Virus record (IMG/VR): IMGVR_UViG_3300040758_000042
Span: 1-21,735 of that record
Source: a virus
DNA: 21,735 nucleotides
Direction: 5' to 3' (one strand)
Shown here: positions 4,723-21,735 of the stretch, one piece after another
Layout of the letters: the number at the start of each line of letters is the position of its first letter
How positions within the stretch are numbered: the stretch's first letter is position 1
The notes under the pieces: generated by a model
The model's input: the letters and a program-made list of their open reading frames with translations, nothing else
Told to the model about the DNA's origin: nothing
The model's database searches: none
Position numbers and translations under genes: made by a program

Positions 4723-6530
4723 GGTGCCCAACCGTCCTCTCGATCTTGTATTTCTTTTTGTTGACGTTCACGTAATTGCTGCCGCCACTTCAGGCAGCCT
4801 ATTGGTACTTCTGGCTTCTCTTGCAATTGCGATAGGCTTTGATCGCGCATTCCAAGCCACGCGAGCGCATCGGCAATGACTCGATCGCCGTGATTCGCTT
4901 TAGCCCCCGATGGGTCAACTTTATTAGTAGACCGCGAGTGTTCAATGCCGCCGTCGCCTGAATAGATATATTCGAGCGTTTCCTCCATCGCGTCCTTTGA
5001 AAGATTGATGCACGCCCCGCGCTCCACGGCAGCGCGATAATCTCCCAGCAGCAATAGCTTGATTTCCTTAGTAGTAACAACTCCCGGAATGTCGGTAACG
5101 GAACCGGATAGACCTTCCGAGCGTCGGCGATAGTGAATGTTGCCATATCCCAACTCCATTATTTTAGAGCCAAATTGCCGGCCTGGTCCACCCGACTCCC
5201 ATACAATATAAGCGCCACCGAACCACTTTGCTATAGCGACGGCCTGTTTCCCGAACGCCTCTGGGCGCACATGCGAATTGGCATACTCCCAAACTTTAGT
5301 ATTTGTGGTCCGGTCGTAACCGGCCAGACAGGAATTACTCGCACCAGTGCCAGCGGAGACATCCACGCCCATTGAATACTTGTGATCCCTGGGGGGAGTT
5401 CCTTCCCCATCGAGTGTACACCAGAGTTTAAGGCTGCCGCCCAAGCCCTCCACAAATCTAATTGGGTCACCCGTAAGATCATCGTATTCAAGCTCTCCAA
5501 TCAACTCAGGTGATCGGGCATGCTTTCGGATTTGTTCGATAATGGCTGCTGGATTGAAGTATTGGAATCCGCTGCCGAGGTAGTCAATGTCAAGCTCTTG
5601 GGCGATCTCCTGAGCGCTTGCAGCCCTTTTGCATTCGTTGTCGTAACATGGACTCCGTAACTTTCCGTCGAGGATCGGTTCGTAGTCTTTTGGGTATCCA
5701 TCCGAGATAATGACTTTAAGCTTACCTCGCTCGTCGCAAGTGTAGAGACCTCTGTTTTTGACAGGATGTTGTGACCAATGCAGCCGCAATCGCTTAATCC
5801 CCAGTTGTCGAACATCGTAGAATGCTGAGTTGACACCACTAGGGGTTGAGTTGAAGAGGCGGCAGTTCGTGGCATCGCGTGTGGAAGTAAGGACACGGTG
5901 CCCGTCTGGTACAGCAGCGAACTCGTCGAGTAGGATGGCCGTTCGTCTGTCGCCGCGCGCGACGTTTCCGGTTGTTGCTTCGCCATCAATCACTCCTCCT
6001 GTTTCAGGATTCTCGATGTGCATCTGCTTACGGCATGAGTCATCGTATCCTTTAGGTATAAGCCAGTTGGGTAAGTTTTGAAGTAAGAAATCGAGCTTCC
6101 AGAACAGACACTTTGGGTTGCCTGCTTGGTCAACGTAGCTTTCAACACGAGAGACGAAGAGGCCGGAGAACCCGGGAACGAACCTCCAGCACCAACCCAT
6201 TGCGTAGATGTTGAGGTAACTGGCCCCCATATCACGCGATTTCTCAATGAGTAAATCATGGTTCCCGATCGCGTCCAGAATGTCGAGCATCGCCTGTTCT
6301 TGGAACGGATACAGAATGAACGGAATGATCGGTCTCTCCGGGCAATCCTTCGGGCTGTATGTCCAAGCAAATGTGTTGATGAAGAAGAGCGGGTCTTTGG
6401 CACATGCAGCAACGACAAGCTCGGCATACTCCGGTTCTGTCAGAACGCATTGAAGAGTCTGCTTTCGATAGAGCAGATTCTCTCTGAGGGTCTTTGGGAC
6501 TCTGCTTATAAATGGAGTAGAGACTTTCAT
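4719..6530 (-). CDS. terL: Terminase large subunit (packaging ATPase and nuclease)
   Basis: 603 residues; the motor that pumps DNA into the procapsid and cuts concatemers. The ATPase half has a terminase-type Walker A at residues 96-104 (EKSRDMGAS), a Walker B with catalytic Glu at 197-204 (TAILLDEF), and a coupling motif STPSG near 228-232. The nuclease half shows the RNase H-like acidic residues D390 in MGVDVSAGTG, E445 in VWESGGPG, and D549/D554 in HGDRVIADALAW. Length and motif order are normal, and nothing is truncated. The start overlaps the stop of the small Cys-rich gene (ATGA), and its own stop overlaps the portal start, so translation is probably coupled. Confidence 0.93.
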   Translation of the reverse strand: MKVSTPFISRVPKTLRENLLYRKQTLQCVLTEPEYAELVVAACAKDPLFFINTFAWTYSPKDCPERPIIPFILYPFQEQAMLDILDAIGNHDLLIEKSRDMGASYLNIYAMGWCWRFVPGFSGLFVSRVESYVDQAGNPKCLFWKLDFLLQNLPNWLIPKGYDDSCRKQMHIENPETGGVIDGEATTGNVARGDRRTAILLDEFAAVPDGHRVLTSTRDATNCRLFNSTPSGVNSAFYDVRQLGIKRLRLHWSQHPVKNRGLYTCDERGKLKVIISDGYPKDYEPILDGKLRSPCYDNECKRAASAQEIAQELDIDYLGSGFQYFNPAAIIEQIRKHARSPELIGELEYDDLTGDPIRFVEGLGGSLKLWCTLDGEGTPPRDHKYSMGVDVSAGTGASNSCLAGYDRTTNTKVWEYANSHVRPEAFGKQAVAIAKWFGGAYIVWESGGPGRQFGSKIMELGYGNIHYRRRSEGLSGSVTDIPGVVTTKEIKLLLLGDYRAAVERGACINLSKDAMEETLEYIYSGDGGIEHSRSTNKVDPSGAKANHGDRVIADALAWLGMRDQSLSQLQEKPEVPIGCLKWRQQLRERQQKEIQDREDGWAP

Positions 6531-13682: not shown

Positions 13683-14145
13683 TTTGCTCATTGCAGAGAT
13701 ACGCGATTTACATCTAAGCTACGGGGAAATCGCCGCGAAGTATGAAATCTCCCGCGAGTATGTCGAGAGACTCGCACGGGAGTTTCGACCCGAAAGCCGC
13801 AAAAAAGTTTCCCCGTCAGGTGATTTTGTCCGATGCCCGGAATGCGGCAGAATGGTGCAAATGCCATGTCTGGAATGCTACGTCGATAACGGCGGCAAGC
13901 ATCTATTCTCGATAGTCGAGAAGACAATCAACCCCGTCCCCGCCGCAACACATCGGGTTTGCCGGGTGTGTAACAAGCGAAAGCCGATTCGATATTTTGG
14001 CAGGGAGACTGCCGTCGGCCAAACGACATGCGATATTCTTACGGTTTGCCAAGTATGTCGGCAGACCAACGACTTACGATCCTTCGACCAAAGGAACAAT
14101 GATGCCTCATGCCGTATTATACGCAAGGTTCTCTCCTCGTCCTAA
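13663..14145 (+). CDS. HTH and zinc-finger DNA-binding protein
   Basis: 160 residues from the ATG at 13663 (GAGGAGAAG upstream). The N-terminal 45 residues form a helix-turn-helix (AEIRDLHLSYGEIAAKYEISREYVERLAREF). A first zinc site follows (CPECGR with CLEC), then a second (CRVCNKRKPIRYF with CQVCRQ). The second resembles the small ribbon found in HNH endonucleases, but no HNH catalytic residues are present. It overlaps the recombinase start (14102) by 44 bp. Its role may be to regulate or assist the recombinase, or to act on the control region; inferred from domains and neighbour only. Confidence 0.65.
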   Translation: MTKPSNNLLIAEIRDLHLSYGEIAAKYEISREYVERLAREFRPESRKKVSPSGDFVRCPECGRMVQMPCLECYVDNGGKHLFSIVEKTINPVPAATHRVCRVCNKRKPIRYFGRETAVGQTTCDILTVCQVCRQTNDLRSFDQRNNDASCRIIRKVLSSS

Positions 14146-14779
14146 TGCTGATGAATGCGATTCCAATCATCACCAGCTAGAACGATGCAAGAAGTATTGC
14201 TTGAGTAAGGATTACTATATCAAGGGAATGTATTGGGATGATTCGATTTCCGGCAAGACGCTTATCCGGCCCGGCTTAACGAACGCATTGGACGCATTGC
14301 AAACGGGATGGGTGCTCATAGTTGACCGGCAAGATCGGCTCGCACGCGACTTGCTCGTTTCGCTAACGATTCATCATGAGGTTGAAAAACGCGGATGCAC
14401 CATTGAGTTCGCTGACGGCTCGCCCATTCGCACGACGCCGGAAGGGAAGTTATTCCAAAGTATGCTTGCGGCGTTTGCGGCATTCGAGCGTGATAAGATT
14501 GCCGAGCGAACCAAAATAGGAATGGCACGCAAAAAAGCCGAAGGGGTTTGGATTGGCCGTCCGCCGATTGGATATCGAGTTGCGGAAGGCAAGCTTTGTA
14601 CGAACGAATCGGAGCAACACGCTATTAAGCTGCTTCTGCAATGCTATTACGAAAAGTTTACGCCTTCCGAAACTGCAAGTTGGCTGAATATGCACAACGG
14701 GCTACTTCGCGATAAACCGTGGACTGCTCGTAAGGTTCTGTCAGTGCTCGCAAAACAGAAGAAGCTTGACAAAGCGTAG
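14102..14779 (+). CDS. Small serine recombinase (resolvase/invertase family)
   Basis: 225 residues. The catalytic domain shows Y-A-R-F-S at residues 7-11 (nucleophile S11, R9), the segment DDSISGKTLIRPGLTNAL, the Arg-rich active-site motif DRQDRLARD at 75-83, and the long E-helix AAFERDKIAERTKIGMARKKAEG. A short DNA-binding end with GRPPIGYRV and a final HTH-like segment follows. It is far shorter than large serine integrases (450 residues or more), so inversion or resolution is more likely than integration. ATG 14102 is chosen because AAGGA is better spaced than for the ATG at 14099. It lies between the accessory genes and the replication genes; no crossover site was found. Confidence 0.85.
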   Translation: MPHAVLYARFSPRPNADECDSNHHQLERCKKYCLSKDYYIKGMYWDDSISGKTLIRPGLTNALDALQTGWVLIVDRQDRLARDLLVSLTIHHEVEKRGCTIEFADGSPIRTTPEGKLFQSMLAAFAAFERDKIAERTKIGMARKKAEGVWIGRPPIGYRVAEGKLCTNESEQHAIKLLLQCYYEKFTPSETASWLNMHNGLLRDKPWTARKVLSVLAKQKKLDKA

Positions 14780-14793: not shown

Positions 14794-14826
14794 TGTGTTG
14801 TTCACGTAACTTTTGGAGACGAAAAA

Positions 14827-15618
14827 ATGGCGTTCAATTTGGAGAGCATAACATGTGAGAAGCGATTGCGGGCACCCCGCATTGTGCTGCTTGGCGTTGA
14901 GAAGATTGGCAAAAGCACGTTCGCTGCTGGTTCGGCGAACCCAATCTTTATTCCGATTCGAGGTGAGCAAGGAATTGATTCGCTTGCTGTGCCTCAGTTT
15001 CCGCAATGTAATTCTATCGAAGATGTGTTTAGTTGCCTTGGGACGCTTTATAACTCCGACCATGATTACGGAACGGTCGTTGTTGATTCGGCCAGTGCCC
15101 TTGAACCTATTGTTTGGAATAAGACATGCGAGGATAACGGTCGTGTCAATTCCATCGAAAAGGTTATGGGTGGATATGGAAAGGGCTACATCGAAGCGTT
15201 GTCTGTTTGGCGAGGTATTACGGAAGGCCTGGATGCCTTGCGAGATAAAAAGAATATGGCGTCGATCGTTATCGGACATGTGAAAGTCAAACGATTCGAC
15301 GATCCTGCCGGCCCGTCTTACGATCAGTACCAATTCGACATTAACGACAAAGCTGCGAATCTGCTTTATCGTTGGTGCGACTTGATTCTGTTCTGCAACA
15401 CAAAGGTTGTCGTTGCTTCGGAATCGGTTGGGTTCAAGAAAGAGAAACACCAAGGGATTGACGTTGCTCCTGGCAGCCGGTTTCTCTACACCCAGAAGCG
15501 TCCGGCCCATCCTGGCGGCGGTCGCGGTGTCTTTGGGCAACTGCCGTATGAGTTGCCTTTGTCGTATGGCAGTTTCATGGATGCCGTCACAACCGCGTCC
15601 AATTCCGTTCCTTTTTAA
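14827..15618 (+). CDS. RecA-like ATPase (Sak4-type single-strand annealing/recombination protein)
   Basis: 263 residues. Walker A is at 23-31 (GVEKIGKST), with strand VLL before it. A Walker B-like strand YGTVVVDSAS ends at D87. SIVIGHVKVKRF and DLILFCNTKVVV continue the RecA core. This is the shape of the AAA_24/Sak4 family, phage proteins that promote strand annealing or exchange with an ssDNA-binding partner. The DUF669-type gene follows directly, the known partner arrangement for Sak4. ATG 14827 is preferred because GGAG lies 8 nt upstream; an earlier in-frame codon at 14782 has no ribosome site. It acts on phage DNA in the cytoplasm. Confidence 0.85.
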   Translation: MAFNLESITCEKRLRAPRIVLLGVEKIGKSTFAAGSANPIFIPIRGEQGIDSLAVPQFPQCNSIEDVFSCLGTLYNSDHDYGTVVVDSASALEPIVWNKTCEDNGRVNSIEKVMGGYGKGYIEALSVWRGITEGLDALRDKKNMASIVIGHVKVKRFDDPAGPSYDQYQFDINDKAANLLYRWCDLILFCNTKVVVASESVGFKKEKHQGIDVAPGSRFLYTQKRPAHPGGGRGVFGQLPYELPLSYGSFMDAVTTASNSVPF

Positions 15619-15630
15619 GAGAGGTTTCTA

Positions 15631-16152
15631 ATTAGTAATTTACGCAGTCTATTTGGTGGTGCATTTGATCCATTCCAGCAGCCGGAACGCAAAGCGGCGT
15701 TTTTGCCTCCTGGAGATTACATCGTCCTCGTCGAAAAAGAAGAAGTCAAGGCAACGAAAGCTGGCACCGGTCATTATCTCGAAATCCAATTCCAGGTAAT
15801 CGACGGCCAATTCAAGGGCCGAAAACTGTGGGATCGTTTCAATGTGGACAATCCGAATGGTGAAGCCGTTCGCATCGCATTAGAGGCCTTGGCGGAGTTG
15901 GGCCGAGCGGCCAACATTCATGACCTATCGGAAACTTCTGCGTTATTGAACAAGACCGCAAAGGTTCGGGTTGCAGTTAAGGACGATAAAAACGAGATTC
16001 GTAAATACGAATCTGTCACTCCGCCCGCCGCAGGAAGCATTCCATTTTCGCAGCAAACCGCACCGATGCAACTGCCGCCGGTCGCTCCGCCGCAAACAGG
16101 ATTGGTGCAACCGCCGCCCGCCGCCGGATTCAAGCCGCCTTGGCAGAAATAG
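15631..16152 (+). CDS. DUF669-type protein, probable ssDNA-binding partner; apparent ATT start
   Basis: About 173 residues if begun at ATT 15631. The N-terminus SNLRSLFGGAFDPFQ matches the typical DUF669 opening, followed by PPGDYIVLVEKEEVKATKAG, YLEIQFQVIDGQFKGRKLWDRFN and VDNPNGEAVRIALEALAELG, then a Pro/Gln-rich tail ending in FKPPWQK. DUF669 proteins adjoin recombinases and are thought to bind ssDNA; the acid-poor Pro-rich tail may be a protein-binding end. There is no ATG, GTG or CTG in the right place. GAGAGG (15619-15624) lies 6 nt before ATT. TTG at 15703 would discard 24 conserved-looking residues. The gene begins 12 bp after the ATPase stop. Confidence 0.75.
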   Translation: MSNLRSLFGGAFDPFQQPERKAAFLPPGDYIVLVEKEEVKATKAGTGHYLEIQFQVIDGQFKGRKLWDRFNVDNPNGEAVRIALEALAELGRAANIHDLSETSALLNKTAKVRVAVKDDKNEIRKYESVTPPAAGSIPFSQQTAPMQLPPVAPPQTGLVQPPPAAGFKPPWQK

Positions 16153-16383: not shown

Positions 16384-16788
16384 ATGCCTGAAATTGATAT
16401 GTCTACACTGTCGTGTCTCGTTCGGCGTCTTCTTAATGATAAGAAAGTCGAAGAGAAAGCAAAAGCGGCGCGAATCGACGCCGAGACAAAAATTGCCGCA
16501 ATGATTCCCGGCCCGGAACGTGGCCAAAAGACCGTCAAGCTGCCCGACGGCTCTTCCGTGACGGTTGAACGCGGATACAACTACAAAGCTGACTTCGATG
16601 CCGTGAAGCTGGCATTGGCTGAGATGCCTGAAACTCCGCCGCCTATCAAGTCAAAGACGACAACCGAGCTTGACGTGACGGGCTATGAATACTACCGGGA
16701 GAACAACCCGGAGGTATTTCAGATTCTCAGCAAGCACGTCATAGCCACACCCAAGAAAATCGCAGTGAGTGTAAAGGCGGCGAAATGA
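16384..16788 (+). CDS. DUF7173-like phage replication-module protein
   Basis: 134 residues. The N-terminal helix is charged (LVRRLLNDKKVEEKAKAARI). It is followed by MIPGPERGQKTVKLPDGSSV, VERGYNYKADFDAV, PPPIKSKTTTELDVTGYEYY and VIATPKKIAVSVKAAK. This series is one I recognise from small phage proteins beside DUF669 and RecA-like genes, which I associate with DUF7173; the family name is from memory and tentative. The biochemical role is unknown to me. CTGGAG lies 8 nt before the ATG, directly after the structured leader. Its TGA overlaps the next ATG (ATGA). Confidence 0.7.
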   Translation: MPEIDMSTLSCLVRRLLNDKKVEEKAKAARIDAETKIAAMIPGPERGQKTVKLPDGSSVTVERGYNYKADFDAVKLALAEMPETPPPIKSKTTTELDVTGYEYYRENNPEVFQILSKHVIATPKKIAVSVKAAK

Positions 16789-17216
16789 TTCAAGTCTACT
16801 TCTCGCCAAAAGGCGGTTGCACGGACGCCATTGTCAAGGCTATCAATGCAGCCAAAAAGGAAATCCTGCTGCAAGCCTACTCGTTTACCGCCGGAAGAAT
16901 CACGCAAGCGTTAGTCGCCGCTAAAAAGCGTAAGGTGAAAGTGTCGGTTATTCTCGACCATAAGCAAGGGCACGACAAAGCAGAGATTCTCCACGCGGCT
17001 GGCGTCATTGTGCTCTCGGATGGTGAGCACGCCATTGCCCACAATAAGATCATTATTGTGGATCGTTCGGTGGTGGTTACCGGGTCGTTCAATTTTAGCT
17101 ACGCCGCCGAGAATAACAACGCCGAGAACCTCTTGGTCATTGACGATCCAAAGCTCGCGGCGCTCTATGTGGCCAATTGGCGAAAACACGCGAAACATTC
17201 AAAGGCTTACTTCTAA
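16785..17216 (+). CDS. Phospholipase D-family (Nuc-like) endonuclease
   Basis: 143 residues with one HKD motif: H86-N-K88-x4-D93 in AHNKIIIVDRSVVVTGSFNFS, followed by NNAENLLVI. The N-terminal half has the typical YFSPKGG, VKAINAAKKEILLQAYSFT and VSVILDHKQ elements. Single-HKD proteins of this size act as dimers and cut DNA without metal. Unlike secreted Nuc, no signal peptide is seen, so it would act in the cytoplasm on phage or host DNA. It sits inside the recombination module, coupled on both sides (ATGA and TAATG), which suggests processing of recombination intermediates or host DNA breakdown. Confidence 0.85.
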   Translation: MIQVYFSPKGGCTDAIVKAINAAKKEILLQAYSFTAGRITQALVAAKKRKVKVSVILDHKQGHDKAEILHAAGVIVLSDGEHAIAHNKIIIVDRSVVVTGSFNFSYAAENNNAENLLVIDDPKLAALYVANWRKHAKHSKAYF

Positions 17217-17506
17217 TGATGATCAGCATTCAAGATAGACAAGTAATCTACGAAAAGACTTCGATAATCATATCGAAACTGTCGGAAAAAAATCTTGGAG
17301 CGGCTATTGTATCCTTATCGTTCCACTGGAATCAAGGGTATGTAGAGTTTTGTAGACAATTTCCGAAAAATACACAGGAGTATGCAATTTCTCTTTACGA
17401 GCTTTTATTAACTAGAATCGACGCTCCGACATTTGCTGATAGCATCAATGCTCGATGGGAACGTGACCGATGTACTTACGGATGGGAGCAAGAAGCGCAT
17501 GTCTGA
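17216..17506 (+). CDS. Small protein, unknown
   Basis: 96 residues: MMISIQDRQVIYEKTSIIIS, KLSEKNLGAAIVSLSFHWNQ, then FCRQFPKNTQEYAISLYELLLTRIDAPTFADSINARWERDRC. Mostly helical, with no membrane segment. It starts in a TAATG overlap with the nuclease stop and overlaps the exonuclease start by 8 bp. I do not recognise the family. Its place between two nucleases suggests, but does not show, a part in DNA processing. Confidence 0.6.
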   Translation: MMISIQDRQVIYEKTSIIISKLSEKNLGAAIVSLSFHWNQGYVEFCRQFPKNTQEYAISLYELLLTRIDAPTFADSINARWERDRCTYGWEQEAHV

Positions 17507-18863
17507 TTTAACGCCATACATCCCGAAGAATACGCAAACCGTGCAGGCTATCTACGACCATTATAAAAAGGTCGGAGACGCCGAAGCGCCGCGAGGTTAC
17601 CTTGGGGCGTCAATCATCGGGCACCCGTGCTCCCGGTATCTGTGGTACAATTTTCGGCACTGCTGCCGTCCAGACATCGACGGAAGGGCGTACCGCCTAT
17701 TTGAGACAGGTGACCTCGCGGAAGCTCGATTCGTTGCCAACTTGCGGGCTATCGGTTGCACTGTCCATGAGATCGACAAACGGACGGGAGAGCAGTTTTC
17801 CGTCTCGGCTATTGGTGGTCACTTCTCCGGCCACATGGATGGATGCGCTTTGGGCGTGCCGGAAGCCCCGAAGACTTGGCATGTTATTGAGTTTAAGACT
17901 CACAACGCGAAGTCGTTCGCTAAGCTAAAATCTGGCGGTACGATTGATGGAGTGCATTACGATGGCGTACAGGGGGCTAAGCCCCAGCATTATGCTCAGA
18001 TGCAAGTTTACATGGGTCTGACGGAAATGACGCGAGCGCTCTATCTTGCCGTTAACAAAGACACCGACGAACTTTACTCCGAGCGGATTCATTTTGACAA
18101 GCTATATTTTAGCGGTCTAATCGAGCGTGCGAGAAATATCATTACGAACAATGAACCTCCGGCTCGTATTTCCGACCGCGAAGATTACTATGAGTGTTCG
18201 TGGTGCGATGCTCATGCGATTTGTTGGGGTTCGCCTGACCTTCCGGCGTTCCCGGTTCTTAATGTTTCGTGCCGTCAGTGTTGCTATTCCACTCCTATGA
18301 TGGATGGCATGGCGCGATGGCAGTGCGATCGGCACGAGCGAAGCTTGTCGGAACAAGACCAAGCGGCAGCTTGTGAAAACCACATTTGCCTTCCGGCGTT
18401 CTTTCCTCAGTGCTCCCCCGTTAGTTGCAGCAAAGAAGTGAATACCACTTGGCTAACCTACGAAGACAACAATACTAAGTTGCAATGGTCAAATGGACAG
18501 ACGGGTTTCACGAGCCAAGAACTAACAAAAATCCCTTACTCAGTCGTGTCGAATCGGCTCGTGAATAGCGCGAAGGAAACCTTAGGGGCCGAAGTGATTC
18601 AATGCAGTAAGGACGACATTCTTTCGCGTTACCCTGTTGAAGAGACGCGAACTTCTGATAGGTTTCCCGCTGCAATGCTTCGGGCGGTTTGGCAACAGAA
18701 ATACGGCGAGGATGTGACCCAGCTAACGCCCATTGCGGCGTGCCAAGAAATCGAATACCGTGCGGCTGTAATGCCCGGCGGTCGAGTAGTTATCGAGTGG
18801 CTTACAGGGGATAATTGTAAAATTGGCGCTTCCAACTGTGAGATACGAGAGGGTGTACAATGA
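17499..18863 (+). CDS. Cas4-like PD-(D/E)XK exonuclease with Fe-S cysteines
   Basis: 454 residues from ATG 17499. The nuclease motif is D114 in GHMDG, then E131-F-K133 in VIEFKTHN, followed by Q163 and Y166 of QHYAQMQVY. One Cys near the N-terminus (C44 in GHPCSRYLWY) and three later (C233, C236 and C242 in CSWCDAHAICW) match the four-Cys iron-sulfur site of Cas4/AddB-type nucleases. A second Cys/His-rich unit follows (CRQCC, WQCDRH, CENH, about 258-295), then a C-terminal domain of about 150 residues. It would resect DNA ends for the Sak4-like ATPase. Its TGA overlaps the next ATG. Confidence 0.85.
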   Translation: MSDLTPYIPKNTQTVQAIYDHYKKVGDAEAPRGYLGASIIGHPCSRYLWYNFRHCCRPDIDGRAYRLFETGDLAEARFVANLRAIGCTVHEIDKRTGEQFSVSAIGGHFSGHMDGCALGVPEAPKTWHVIEFKTHNAKSFAKLKSGGTIDGVHYDGVQGAKPQHYAQMQVYMGLTEMTRALYLAVNKDTDELYSERIHFDKLYFSGLIERARNIITNNEPPARISDREDYYECSWCDAHAICWGSPDLPAFPVLNVSCRQCCYSTPMMDGMARWQCDRHERSLSEQDQAAACENHICLPAFFPQCSPVSCSKEVNTTWLTYEDNNTKLQWSNGQTGFTSQELTKIPYSVVSNRLVNSAKETLGAEVIQCSKDDILSRYPVEETRTSDRFPAAMLRAVWQQKYGEDVTQLTPIAACQEIEYRAAVMPGGRVVIEWLTGDNCKIGASNCEIREGVQ

Positions 18864-19009
18864 AGATCGTATGTGAATACTGCGGAAAGGAACTTTATGG
18901 CGAAGAAGCTGAGCTAACGGAAGATCGGTTTATGAGTGAAATCCTTGACGACCACACCCTGCTCCACCTTTGCTACGATTGCAACGAAGAACATGCCCAA
19001 GATATTTGA
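18860..19009 (+). CDS. 49-residue zinc-binding protein
   Basis: 49 residues: MKIVCEYCGKELYGEEAELT, then a helix and HLCYDCNEEH. Two Cys pairs (C-E-Y-C and C-Y-D-C) form a classic zinc knuckle/ribbon. It is coupled to the exonuclease stop (ATGA) and to the next ATG (TGATG at 19007-19011). The second coupling is telling: the same junction would once have led straight into the helicase start, now copied downstream. Probably a small DNA- or protein-binding partner of the replication enzymes. Confidence 0.65.
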   Translation: MKIVCEYCGKELYGEEAELTEDRFMSEILDDHTLLHLCYDCNEEHAQDI

Positions 19010-19263
19010 TGTTTCAACTTCGCCCCTATCAACTCGAAGCTGTCAATGCCGTCAACGAGTTCGTTGTTCCTGTTTACGAAGCACAGCGCGTTGCATCACT
19101 AGAAAAACCCTTCGATGCCACGCCGTTTCACTGCGAGACTTACCAAAGGGACTTTTTTGGTATTCGTAATTACGGAACTGTTTTCTACCGCCATGAAGGA
19201 ACTCCACCGAAAGAGATTTTCGATTTGTTACTGCAATACATATTTGAGGGAAAAATCAGATGA
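19009..19263 (+). CDS. Chimeric ORF: helicase N-terminal stub fused to an unrelated tail
   Basis: 84 residues. Residues 2-19 (FQLRPYQLEAVNAVNEFV) equal residues 3-20 of the downstream helicase. From residue 20 the sequence changes to VPVYEAQRVASLEKPFDATP, then FHCETYQRDFFGIRNYGTVFYRHEG and FDLLLQYIFEGKIR, which I do not recognise. The helicase ATP-binding motif is absent, so this cannot be a helicase. It begins in a TGATG overlap and ends in an ATGA overlap, so it is embedded in the operon. The FHCETYQRDFFGIRNYGTVFY part looks like a real folded domain. Confidence 0.65.
   Translation: MFQLRPYQLEAVNAVNEFVVPVYEAQRVASLEKPFDATPFHCETYQRDFFGIRNYGTVFYRHEGTPPKEIFDLLLQYIFEGKIR
19012..19065 (+). repeat. 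Upstream copy of the duplicated helicase 5' end
   Basis: 54 bp encoding 18 residues match 19460-19513 at 49 of 54 positions. All five differences (CAA/CAG, GCT/GCC, GTC/GTT, AAC/AAT, GTT/GTC) are synonymous third positions. Copies are 448 bp apart. Confidence 0.9.
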
Positions 19264-19454
19264 AGACGGTAAAGCTCATTACTATCGAAGACCTTGAGAA
19301 AGCACAACAAGACGAAGCAATTATTTTTGTTAATTTACTATATCGAGGTCGTAAAATCTATCTGGAGTCGAATGGCGATGCCGAAAATGATCTCAGAGTA
19401 GTAAATGGTTTCGCTGATAAAATCTACAATACCTTAGCTGAATGGGTTACGTAA
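19260..19454 (+). CDS. Small protein inserted before the helicase
   Basis: 64 residues: MKTVKLITIEDLEKAQQDEA, then IIFVNLLYRGRKIYLESNGDAENDLRVVNGFADKIYNTLAEWV. It lies between the two copies of the helicase 5' end, so it belongs to the inserted segment. It starts in an ATGA overlap with the chimeric ORF, and its TAA overlaps the helicase ATG (TAATG). No zinc site, membrane segment or nuclease motif is visible. Its function is unknown. Confidence 0.65.
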   Translation: MKTVKLITIEDLEKAQQDEAIIFVNLLYRGRKIYLESNGDAENDLRVVNGFADKIYNTLAEWVT

Positions 19455-21082
19455 TGGCTTTTCAGCTTCGCCCCTATCAACTCGAAGCCGTTAATGCCGT
19501 CAATGAGTTCGTCTGCATAAAGCAAGGAAATCCTTGTGTCTCAATGCCGACGGGATCGGGTAAGTCGCCGACGATGGCGGCGCTGATACGACTATGGCAA
19601 AAAGATTATCCTAACCTTCGTGGATGCGTCCTGGCACATCGAAAAGAGCTTGTTCAACAAAACTATGAAAAACTACAAAGTCAATACGGGGAAAGCGGCG
19701 GCGGCAATATCGGAATCTTTTCAGCGGGACTTGGAAGGCGAGATTATCATTCTCCCATTGTCTTCGCTTCCATCGACTCCGTGTACAACAAAAGCGGAGA
19801 GTTCGCGCCCTTCGATTTTATCTTTGTTGACGAAGCACACCGTATTCCGTTTAGTGGAGAGGGCAAGTATCGTAGCTTTCTTAGTGGCTGCCGCCGGTTT
19901 AATCCCAAACTTTGCATCGTGGGTTGGACTGCCACGCCCTGGCGCATGGCTGGAGGTGCTTTGTGCCATCCCGATCATATACTTAATTCTGTATGTTACG
20001 AAGCCAAGCTCACTGATTTAATAGCCCAAGGTTATCTTTGCCCTCTTCGTTCTAAGATAGGAGTTTCTCATGCAGATTTATCCGAAGTTCGGCGTCAATC
20101 CGGCGGCGACTACATCACGAAATCTTTATCGACTGCTGTCAACGTGGATTCGTTGGTGTCATCTGCCATCGGAGAGGCGGTGCGAATTATACGAGCGGAA
20201 GCTCGCCAAGCCATTGTCTTTTATTGTGTCGATGTCCAACATTGCGAAAAGGTATCGCTGGAACTTCGACGATATGGAATCGAAGCCCCATGCCTGACGG
20301 CGAAAACAAAAACGTCAACCCGAGACCGTATGGTCGATGACTTTAAGGCTCAGCGGATTCATGCCATTTGTAACGTCAATGTTTTAACAGAGGGTTTTGA
20401 TGCTCCTCATATTGATTGCGTGGTGCTTCTTCGTCCTACTCTCAGCGCTGGTTTGTTTAGCCAGATGGTTGGAAGGGGATTGCGACTTTGGCCCGATAAG
20501 CATGATTGTCTGGTACTTGACTTCGCCGGTTGTATTGATGAGCATGGTCCTGTTGATCTTCTTGGTGGCGCGCCTGTTAAGCTGGTGACATGCGAAGCTT
20601 GCCGTGAGACCTTCAGCCGGGTCACTAAAGTTTGCCCGGCGTGCGGCCGGGAAGTTCCTAAGATAATCGTGGAGCGAGCCGCCGCCGAGGAACGCGAAAA
20701 GAGATTGCACGGAACCCAGGCGTCTACAAAATCCATACTTTCCGATGTACCAGAAATACTGAAGGTAGATACCGTCTATGTCAACCGACACAAGAAGCCG
20801 GGTAGTCCCGATTCAGTGCGAATCCAATTCCGATGCGGACTCCGAATGTTTCGCCATTGGTGCTTGCTTGACCATGCTGGTCCAGCAGGAAATATCGCTC
20901 AGGAGTGGTGGCGCAAGTATGCAGGAAATAGCAGCAATAAGAAGCAATATACAAGCGTTGATGAAGCTCTTGGAGACTTGCTCATATCTCAAACCCTTCT
21001 CGATTCGATTCACACCATTACCGTCCGCAGGCATGGAAAATATCACGAGATCGTAGCCTATAATCAACCGCTGAGCACGTAA
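19454..21082 (+). CDS. Superfamily 2 DEAH-box helicase
   Basis: 542 residues. Walker A is at 31-38 (MPTGSGKS), the DEAH box at 125-129 (VDEAH), motif III at 158-164 (GWTATPWR), motif V near 307-318 (NVNVLTEGFDAP) and motif VI at 338-344 (QMVGRGLR). The N-terminal Q-like segment is FQLRPYQ. A zinc ribbon follows the helicase core (C380-x2-C383, C394-x2-C397), then a C-terminal domain with RHWCLLDH and EWWRKYAG, common in phage DEAD/DEAH helicases. It would unwind replication or recombination intermediates. I use ATG 19454 because of the TAATG junction. Confidence 0.93.
   Translation: MAFQLRPYQLEAVNAVNEFVCIKQGNPCVSMPTGSGKSPTMAALIRLWQKDYPNLRGCVLAHRKELVQQNYEKLQSQYGESGGGNIGIFSAGLGRRDYHSPIVFASIDSVYNKSGEFAPFDFIFVDEAHRIPFSGEGKYRSFLSGCRRFNPKLCIVGWTATPWRMAGGALCHPDHILNSVCYEAKLTDLIAQGYLCPLRSKIGVSHADLSEVRRQSGGDYITKSLSTAVNVDSLVSSAIGEAVRIIRAEARQAIVFYCVDVQHCEKVSLELRRYGIEAPCLTAKTKTSTRDRMVDDFKAQRIHAICNVNVLTEGFDAPHIDCVVLLRPTLSAGLFSQMVGRGLRLWPDKHDCLVLDFAGCIDEHGPVDLLGGAPVKLVTCEACRETFSRVTKVCPACGREVPKIIVERAAAEEREKRLHGTQASTKSILSDVPEILKVDTVYVNRHKKPGSPDSVRIQFRCGLRMFRHWCLLDHAGPAGNIAQEWWRKYAGNSSNKKQYTSVDEALGDLLISQTLLDSIHTITVRRHGKYHEIVAYNQPLST
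19460..19513 (+). repeat. Downstream copy of the duplicated helicase 5' end
   Basis: The functional copy at the start of the full-length helicase; partner of 19012-19065 with five synonymous differences. The intervening 394 bp carry the unique tail of the chimeric ORF and the 64-residue gene. Confidence 0.9.
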
Positions 21083-21099
21083 TAAACAGGAATGCAATA

Positions 21100-21735
21100 A
21101 TGGGTTCGTTGCAGGATGCCGCATTGTACTATGCCTCTCTAGGGTGGAATATATTTCCTCTTGCTCCGGGCCAAAAGACTCCCATGACGAGCCACGGGAT
21201 TCTGGACGCCACGAACGATTCTGGAGCGATCCGCGAGTGGTGGGATAAATGGCCCACGGCGAACATCGGACTCGCCTGTGGCGACGCCAGCGGCGTTTAC
21301 GTGATTGATGTGGATGTACGCCCGACCGAAGACGGCTTTGAATCGCTCAAAGACTTTCCGCCTATTCCGCCGACGGTAACGCAAAACACTCCGAGAGGGG
21401 GTGTACACTATTTCTATACAGCCGTGACGCCGCCGTCCAGCCGGAATAAGTTTCGTAAGGGGGTCGACATCCGAAGCAACGGATTCTACGTTGTATTAGC
21501 CCCTTCTACGTGGGTAGGCGACCAAACGTGTCCGTTGGGTGGTAAATACGAATGGTCGCCCGACGCTGCACCGTGGCAGCGAGGTTATGCCGACTATCCC
21601 GAGTTTATGAGACCGGCCACGCGGGCACCGTGGGCGATGTCGCCGCAAGCCGAGAGACAAGAACCCCAGCCAAAGCAAGAAAGTGCCGAGGTTCTTATCC
21701 GAGCGTCGAAGTATCTTGCAGCATGCGATCCAGCG
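21100..21735 (+). CDS. Bifunctional DNA primase/polymerase (Prim-Pol), partial
   Basis: The open frame begins at ATG 21100 (AGGA about 8 nt upstream) and runs off the window after 212 codons. The N-terminal Prim-Pol domain is clear: ALYYASLGWNIFPL at the start, SHGILDATND, the metal-binding pair D70-V-D72 in VYVIDVDVRP, TPRGGVHYFY with H103, and GVDIRSNGFYVVLAPS near 121-136. This family makes primers, and often DNA, at phage and plasmid origins, and usually carries a helicase domain beyond the N-terminal part, which would lie outside the window. It follows the SF2 helicase by 17 bp and completes the replication module. Confidence 0.9.
   Translation, partial: MGSLQDAALYYASLGWNIFPLAPGQKTPMTSHGILDATNDSGAIREWWDKWPTANIGLACGDASGVYVIDVDVRPTEDGFESLKDFPPIPPTVTQNTPRGGVHYFYTAVTPPSSRNKFRKGVDIRSNGFYVVLAPSTWVGDQTCPLGGKYEWSPDAAPWQRGYADYPEFMRPATRAPWAMSPQAERQEPQPKQESAEVLIRASKYLAACDPA

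Follow-up and report, generated by a model that had tools for sequence, protein, structure and literature searches.

A duplicated helicase start in an uncultured phage, probably left by recombination between related phages

SXT/R391 ICEs integrate into the 5′ end of prfC, and prfC is restored by a new 5′ end. The phage locus analyzed here is similar in that an insertion lies at the start of a conserved gene, which regains its 5′ end; however, its 394-nt insert shows neither an integrase nor fixed content nor demonstrated site specificity. Phage morons are small orphan genes of differing composition that lie between conserved genes and carry their own promoter and terminator. Small orphan genes of different composition also lie between conserved genes in our locus, but a consensus scan detected promoter- and terminator-like matches around the insert only at chance level, and the genes are translationally coupled into an operon. 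Insertions of homing endonucleases close to essential genes of phages (PMC2988022, PMC10448857) share with it the gain of small genes beside conserved ones through recombination and co-conversion of flanks, whereas no endonuclease (HNH, GIY-YIG or LAGLIDADG) was recognized in the insert by Pfam and PHROGs. The locus is therefore not classed as a moron, an integrase element or a homing cassette.

In phage mosaicism through homeologous or illegitimate recombination, as mediated by lambda Red and Sak/Sak4 systems, related phages swap gene blocks that lie between conserved genes (PMC2327257, PMC5928155, PMC5499656), and a Sak4-like gene with its usual neighbor is present in the DNA studied here. 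The locus works as ordinary phage mosaicism does, in that accessory genes are gained, and in addition the 5′ end of the neighboring gene is re-supplied. It differs from these systems in that a recognizable 5′ piece of the conserved flanking gene remains. The less usual element is that a left-over helicase start has been reused to begin a small foreign gene, at a site for which relatives show other states.

The helicase-start repeat and the genes around it

The window, i.e., the whole stretch of DNA analyzed, is one virus record of an uncultured phage (IMGVR_UViG_3300040758_000042, here G000; 21,735 bases). Codons from the helicase start are duplicated in it, at 19012-19065 and 19460-19513, with 49 of 54 nucleotides identical (92% DNA identity), and both copies of the 18 shared codons encode F-Q-L-R-P-Y-Q-L-E-A-V-N-A-V-N-E-F-V. 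All five differences are synonymous third-position changes (CAA/CAG, GCT/GCC, GTC/GTT, AAC/AAT and GTT/GTC). The synonymous share of random single changes in this stretch is 22-28%, which gives a probability of 0.0005-0.0017 for five out of five under neutrality. This pair tops the direct repeats of the 21.7-kb window by a wide margin, and each copy is nearer to the other than to any other helicase.

The 49-aa gene is joined to the 84-aa ORF by TGATG, the latter overlaps the 64-aa gene by ATGA, and the 64-aa gene is joined to the helicase by TAATG (Table 1). The copies and their five synonymous differences had been located exactly, to the base, in a preliminary description of this DNA, and its gene limits and TGATG and TAATG couplings proved correct when the sequence was re-read. 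That description had also named an assembly artefact as a way in which its reading could fail. A second IMG/VR contig (L003; 4,089 bp) has the same arrangement, with 99.97% identity to positions 18717-21735 of the window (one mismatch in 3,019 bp), and extends 1,070 bp beyond the window end; the repeat is therefore not an artefact of assembly. Joining the flanks at the repeat computationally yields the predicted empty site, in which the helicase start, MFQLRPYQLEAVNAVNEFVCIKQGNPC, is in frame. A 5-bp hairpin, CAACGAGTTCGTTG, lies at 19053-19066, right where the helicase start meets the foreign tail; its occurrence is at chance level (shuffle mean 1.0).

Table 1. Features of the window that are discussed in the text
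Feature	Position	Strand	Basis or remark
Serine recombinase	14111-14551		PF00239; in 8 of 29 related records
Sak4-like single-strand annealing protein	14821-15618	+	phrog_124, E=3e-26; AAA_24
DUF669 protein beside sak4	15703-16152	+	PF05037, E=5.5e-15
Cas4-domain exonuclease, left flank of variable slot	17499-18863	+	phrog_1990, E=6e-98; putative start codon, frame open from 17433
49-aa CxxC gene, orphan	18860-19009	+	Sequence; ATGA overlap with exonuclease
Left copy of helicase 5′ end (start codon and 18 codons), now opening the 84-aa ORF	19009-19065	+	92% identity
84-aa ORF (19 helicase-start residues and unrelated 65-aa tail)	19009-19263	+	Sequence
Insert between the two helicase starts	19066-19459	+	40.4% GC; putative right limit, includes start codon of intact helicase
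65-aa tail, fused in frame to helicase start	19066-19263	+	Weak match to phrog_1523 (unknown function)
64-aa gene of insert, orphan	19260-19454	+	Codon score z=4.35; GC3 0.34
Complete RadD-like SF2 helicase	19454-21082	+	phrog_16, E=1e-86; ResIII and Helicase_C (Pfam)
Right copy of helicase 5′ end, within intact helicase gene	19460-19513	+	Direct repeat

The insert differs in composition from the window, whose GC content is 50.2%; equally low values occur in 2.2% of the 394-nt windows of the record. Third-position GC is 0.40 in the tail and lower still in the 64-aa gene, both at or below the 1st percentile among 65-codon gene windows. Codon usage is coding-like in the 49-aa gene, the tail and the 64-aa gene, and weakest in the tail. 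Given that the tail has no in-frame ATG, GTG or TTG up to a TTG close to its end, the ATG at 19009, derived from the helicase, serves as its start in practice.

The match of the tail to phrog_1523 (E=0.0033) spans positions 23-67 of the 72-position profile. Among 10 controls made by shuffling or reversing the tail, the lowest E value was 0.06, and a search for phrog_1523 members to align with it found none. Beyond L003, no relatives of the tail were found in viral_contigs, genome_contigs, phages or plasmids, and searches with the 64-aa gene likewise returned only L003. An ancient, independent family of the 84-aa ORF, which the preliminary description had considered as a refutation of its reading, is thus not seen in the four collections. 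The structure model of the 84-aa protein is of low confidence (pLDDT 55), and a fold search with it gave no matches. Neither a recombinase nor an endonuclease was detected in the insert by Pfam, PHROGs and PADLOC.

The 49-aa gene is probably the pre-insertion neighbor of the helicase. Only L003 carries a relative of it in viral_contigs; a match in L330 was rejected as a chance terminase match, and similarities to HNH-like zinc fingers were below threshold (E 0.016-0.06). The helicase is classified by sequence and by its similarity to the RadD structure 6jde (E=2e-59) as RadD-like SF2, and a Prim-Pol gene (Pfam) lies downstream. A small PLD-like protein (16785-17216; PF13091, E=2e-23) is encoded among the replication genes and also matches DISARM DrmC models in PADLOC (E=2e-15).

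The exonuclease-helicase slot in related phages

Family loci were gathered by searches with the helicase and two helicase alignments. In these relatives, the distance from the exonuclease stop to the helicase start ranges from -4 nt to 1,663 nt, with a direct 4-nt overlap of the two genes in L073, L081, L089 and L122, and the slot contains mostly unrelated small genes. Insertions have occurred repeatedly in this slot within the phage group. In L007, a tRNA-Ser gene (anticodon AGA; 4784-4857) stops 5 nt short of the helicase start codon, so that here a non-coding RNA gene occupies the slot. The slots of L004, L007 and L017 have two genes in common, in varying order: one of 236-295 aa whose GSGxLVxR and TAxHV motifs look protease-like by eye, and one of 62-64 aa that resembles a zinc ribbon.

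An exact empty site for the window, in which the 49-aa gene directly precedes this helicase, was not found among the relatives, and no donor (tail gene, 64-aa gene, helicase) was found in viral_contigs, phages or genome_contigs, which is weak evidence given that environmental phages are thinly sampled. Exonuclease and helicase distances correlate across the relatives (r=0.73). For L055 and L063 the nearest relative is identical for both genes, so the slot changed between flanks that did not separate. With the distances of the two genes in agreement, there is no sign that whole helicases were imported from distant phages; the donor must therefore have been close or the exchanged tract short. 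A breakpoint near codon 80 inside the helicase of L055 or L059 was suggestive of mosaicism, but comparable jumps occur elsewhere in the gene. Likewise, DNA conservation at the helicase start seemed elevated in a few window-specific pairs, but a family-wide test found no exceptional synonymous conservation over codon usage in the first helicase windows, so that the idea of the helicase start as an extra-conserved recombination site was rejected.

Left-over helicase starts were sought in 65 loci by matching the 75 nt at the beginning of each helicase gene to the DNA upstream of that gene. The window scored 45, L063 23 and L055 22, and the other 62 loci 14 or less; none of 3,968 cross-locus control comparisons reached 18. 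Extension of the scan to 206 distinct helicase loci still gave these three cases only (next best 16; downstream control maximum 16). The remnant in L063 (2344-2394) has lost its ATG and contains amino-acid changes, and a spacer separates it from the helicase. In L055 the first codons of the remnant (2065-2092) are missing, and the order is geneX, remnant, two other small genes and intact helicase. A geneX family member directly overlaps the helicase in L077, which is a near-empty site and the likely pre-insertion arrangement for L055. Older left-over helicase starts decay, as shown for L063 and L055. The L063 spacer (2386-2500) contains a long stem, GCAATCGCAGG/CCTGCGATTGC, and folds better than its shuffles (z -3.3); by eye it resembles a tRNA, although no tRNA was called by ARAGORN or Rfam.

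All three remnants end at helicase nucleotides 46-59. The shortness of the remnants may mean that the join is favored there, that longer repeats recombine out and are lost, or that older remnants stay recognizable only in the conserved LRPYQxEA motif. The remnants in L055 and L063 resemble certain other helicases almost as closely as the helicase of their own locus, so that more than one helicase is possible as their source. Low GC content of the insert is clear in the window, only mild in L055 and not clear in L063 or L084.

When 44 family loci (290 kb) were scanned for self-repeats, further cases emerged besides repeats within repetitive genes; Markov-shuffled controls gave 0, 0, 0, 1 and 0 matches. 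In L084, a 29-nt repeat (LLIPxxR and stop; 2050-2078 and 2478-2506) forms the ends of two successive slot genes, and its copies flank an extra 143-aa gene upstream of the helicase. L083, with geneA directly before the helicase, was considered as the exact empty site for L084, but the geneA end differs. Two small slot genes of L085 lie in a 523-nt tandem duplication (1415-2450; 74% identical). In L059 (4066-4424), the helicase 3′ end is repeated (approximately 60 nt, 92% identical) behind a 76-aa gene, followed by its strongly diverged paralog; this is the mirror-image case at the opposite end of the helicase. Short inter-gene direct repeats were also present in 46 of 209 other phage loci, where some are probably promoters or other signals, so that the repeat signature alone is neither rare nor special to this group.

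Origin of the locus

We consider it likely that the locus is the scar of accessory-gene acquisition through recombination between two related phages. In the ancestor, the order was most likely exonuclease, 49-aa gene and helicase, with the helicase TGATG-coupled to the 49-aa gene. This resident would have recombined with a donor whose helicase was very similar but was preceded by other small genes. The right join would lie inside the common helicase sequence, so that the donor also supplied its helicase start and the helicase gene remained whole. The left join would connect the resident helicase, at about codon 19, to the donor small genes, and from weak homology it may lie near codon 8-9 of a phrog_1523-like gene. 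The resident's first 19 helicase codons would remain as the second copy, this old start now providing the foreign tail with its ribosome start and 19 N-terminal residues, and the product would be a tightly coupled operon of the 49-aa gene, the 84-aa fusion, the 64-aa gene and the helicase.

Several observations bear on this origin. Relatives without the insert, in which the flanks are adjacent, are present (L073, L081, L089 and L122, as well as L077 compared with L055), and the insert, at 40.4% vs 50.2% GC and with genes that have no relatives, differs from its flanks. With roughly one random change in four expected to be synonymous, five of five has a probability near 0.001, and neutral divergence within one genome is unlikely. 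To this extent, the claim in the preliminary description that the copies are not a decayed recent tandem duplication is supported. We favor the idea that the copies came from two phages and diverged under selection before they were joined, the alternative being that both have been held since.

Judging from their families, the Cas4-like nuclease and the Sak4-like annealase, the latter together with the DUF669 protein, are plausible agents. In HK620, DNA annealing by Sak4 is aided by an adjacent SSB (PMC5928155), and by analogy the DUF669 protein is a plausible cognate SSB of the Sak4-like protein. Lambda Red recombines sequences that are 22% diverged (PMC2327257). The Sak4-like protein is a candidate driver of recombination between diverged phages, an involvement suggested through guilt by association.

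A different question is whether the 84-aa fusion is itself a selected functional protein, whose helicase-derived N-terminal segment binds or interferes with a helicase partner or the helicase, both copies being maintained at the protein level. This concerns function rather than origin and can be compatible with an origin from two phages. The purely synonymous differences agree with it, as do an ORF that is intact in both contigs, its coding-like codons and its coupling on both sides. On the other hand, the synonymous divergence may predate the join, no relatives were found by which selection on the ORF could be gauged, and the structure model is of low confidence. In addition, the matching fragments are decayed in L063 and L055, which argues against a general need to keep them. 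We regard a selected function as unlikely, and the suggestion in the preliminary description that the fusion mimics the helicase N-terminal segment is not supported.

The preliminary description had proposed a cassette that inserts into the helicase start and restores the gene with a replacement 5′ end. Insertion and restoration by a second 5′ end are upheld by the near-empty sites and the two remnant loci; the idea of a mobile unit is weakened, since inserts differ everywhere and contain no recognizable recombinase or endonuclease. A site-specific mobile cassette with the conserved helicase start (LRPYQxEA) as its target, comparable to ICE SXT at prfC, would account for the three remnants that stop within a short stretch of the helicase, for the restoration of the helicase every time and for the compact inserts. 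However, insert contents are unrelated from case to case, and the first codons lack exceptional synonymous conservation across relatives. The serine recombinase of the window was not found in the records of L055 and L063 and was rejected as the insertion agent because it is not common to these cases. Given these differing inserts and the lack of a shared or insert-borne enzyme, ordinary recombination between phages suffices, and a mobile cassette appears quite improbable.

A tandem duplication within a single genome, with the intervening genes replaced later, is consistent with the closeness of the two copies and with the occurrence of such events in the slot (L085), but it is very improbable, because it needs two steps, the GC content of the insert differs, neutral divergence would yield non-synonymous changes and the genes left of the remnants (the 49-aa gene, and geneX in L055) differ from the insert, so that a simple duplication does not fit. 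Equally hard to credit is the more far-reaching idea that the helicase start is a true recombination target at which compact cassettes insert and rebuild the gene and repeatedly make chimeras with a RadD N-terminus, the 84-aa protein having been recruited as a helicase regulator.

Implications for gene gain in packed operons

Recombination between two related phages, as favored here, would illustrate a possible step in gene gain inside a packed operon, in which the start of the neighboring gene is re-supplied and the conserved function is kept, and the old start is reused for translating a foreign gene. The order of events is made testable by a series of states: the copy is intact in the window and decayed in L063 and L055, and other relatives have empty or differently filled sites. 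Short left-over gene starts of this kind could map where and how often phages recombine.
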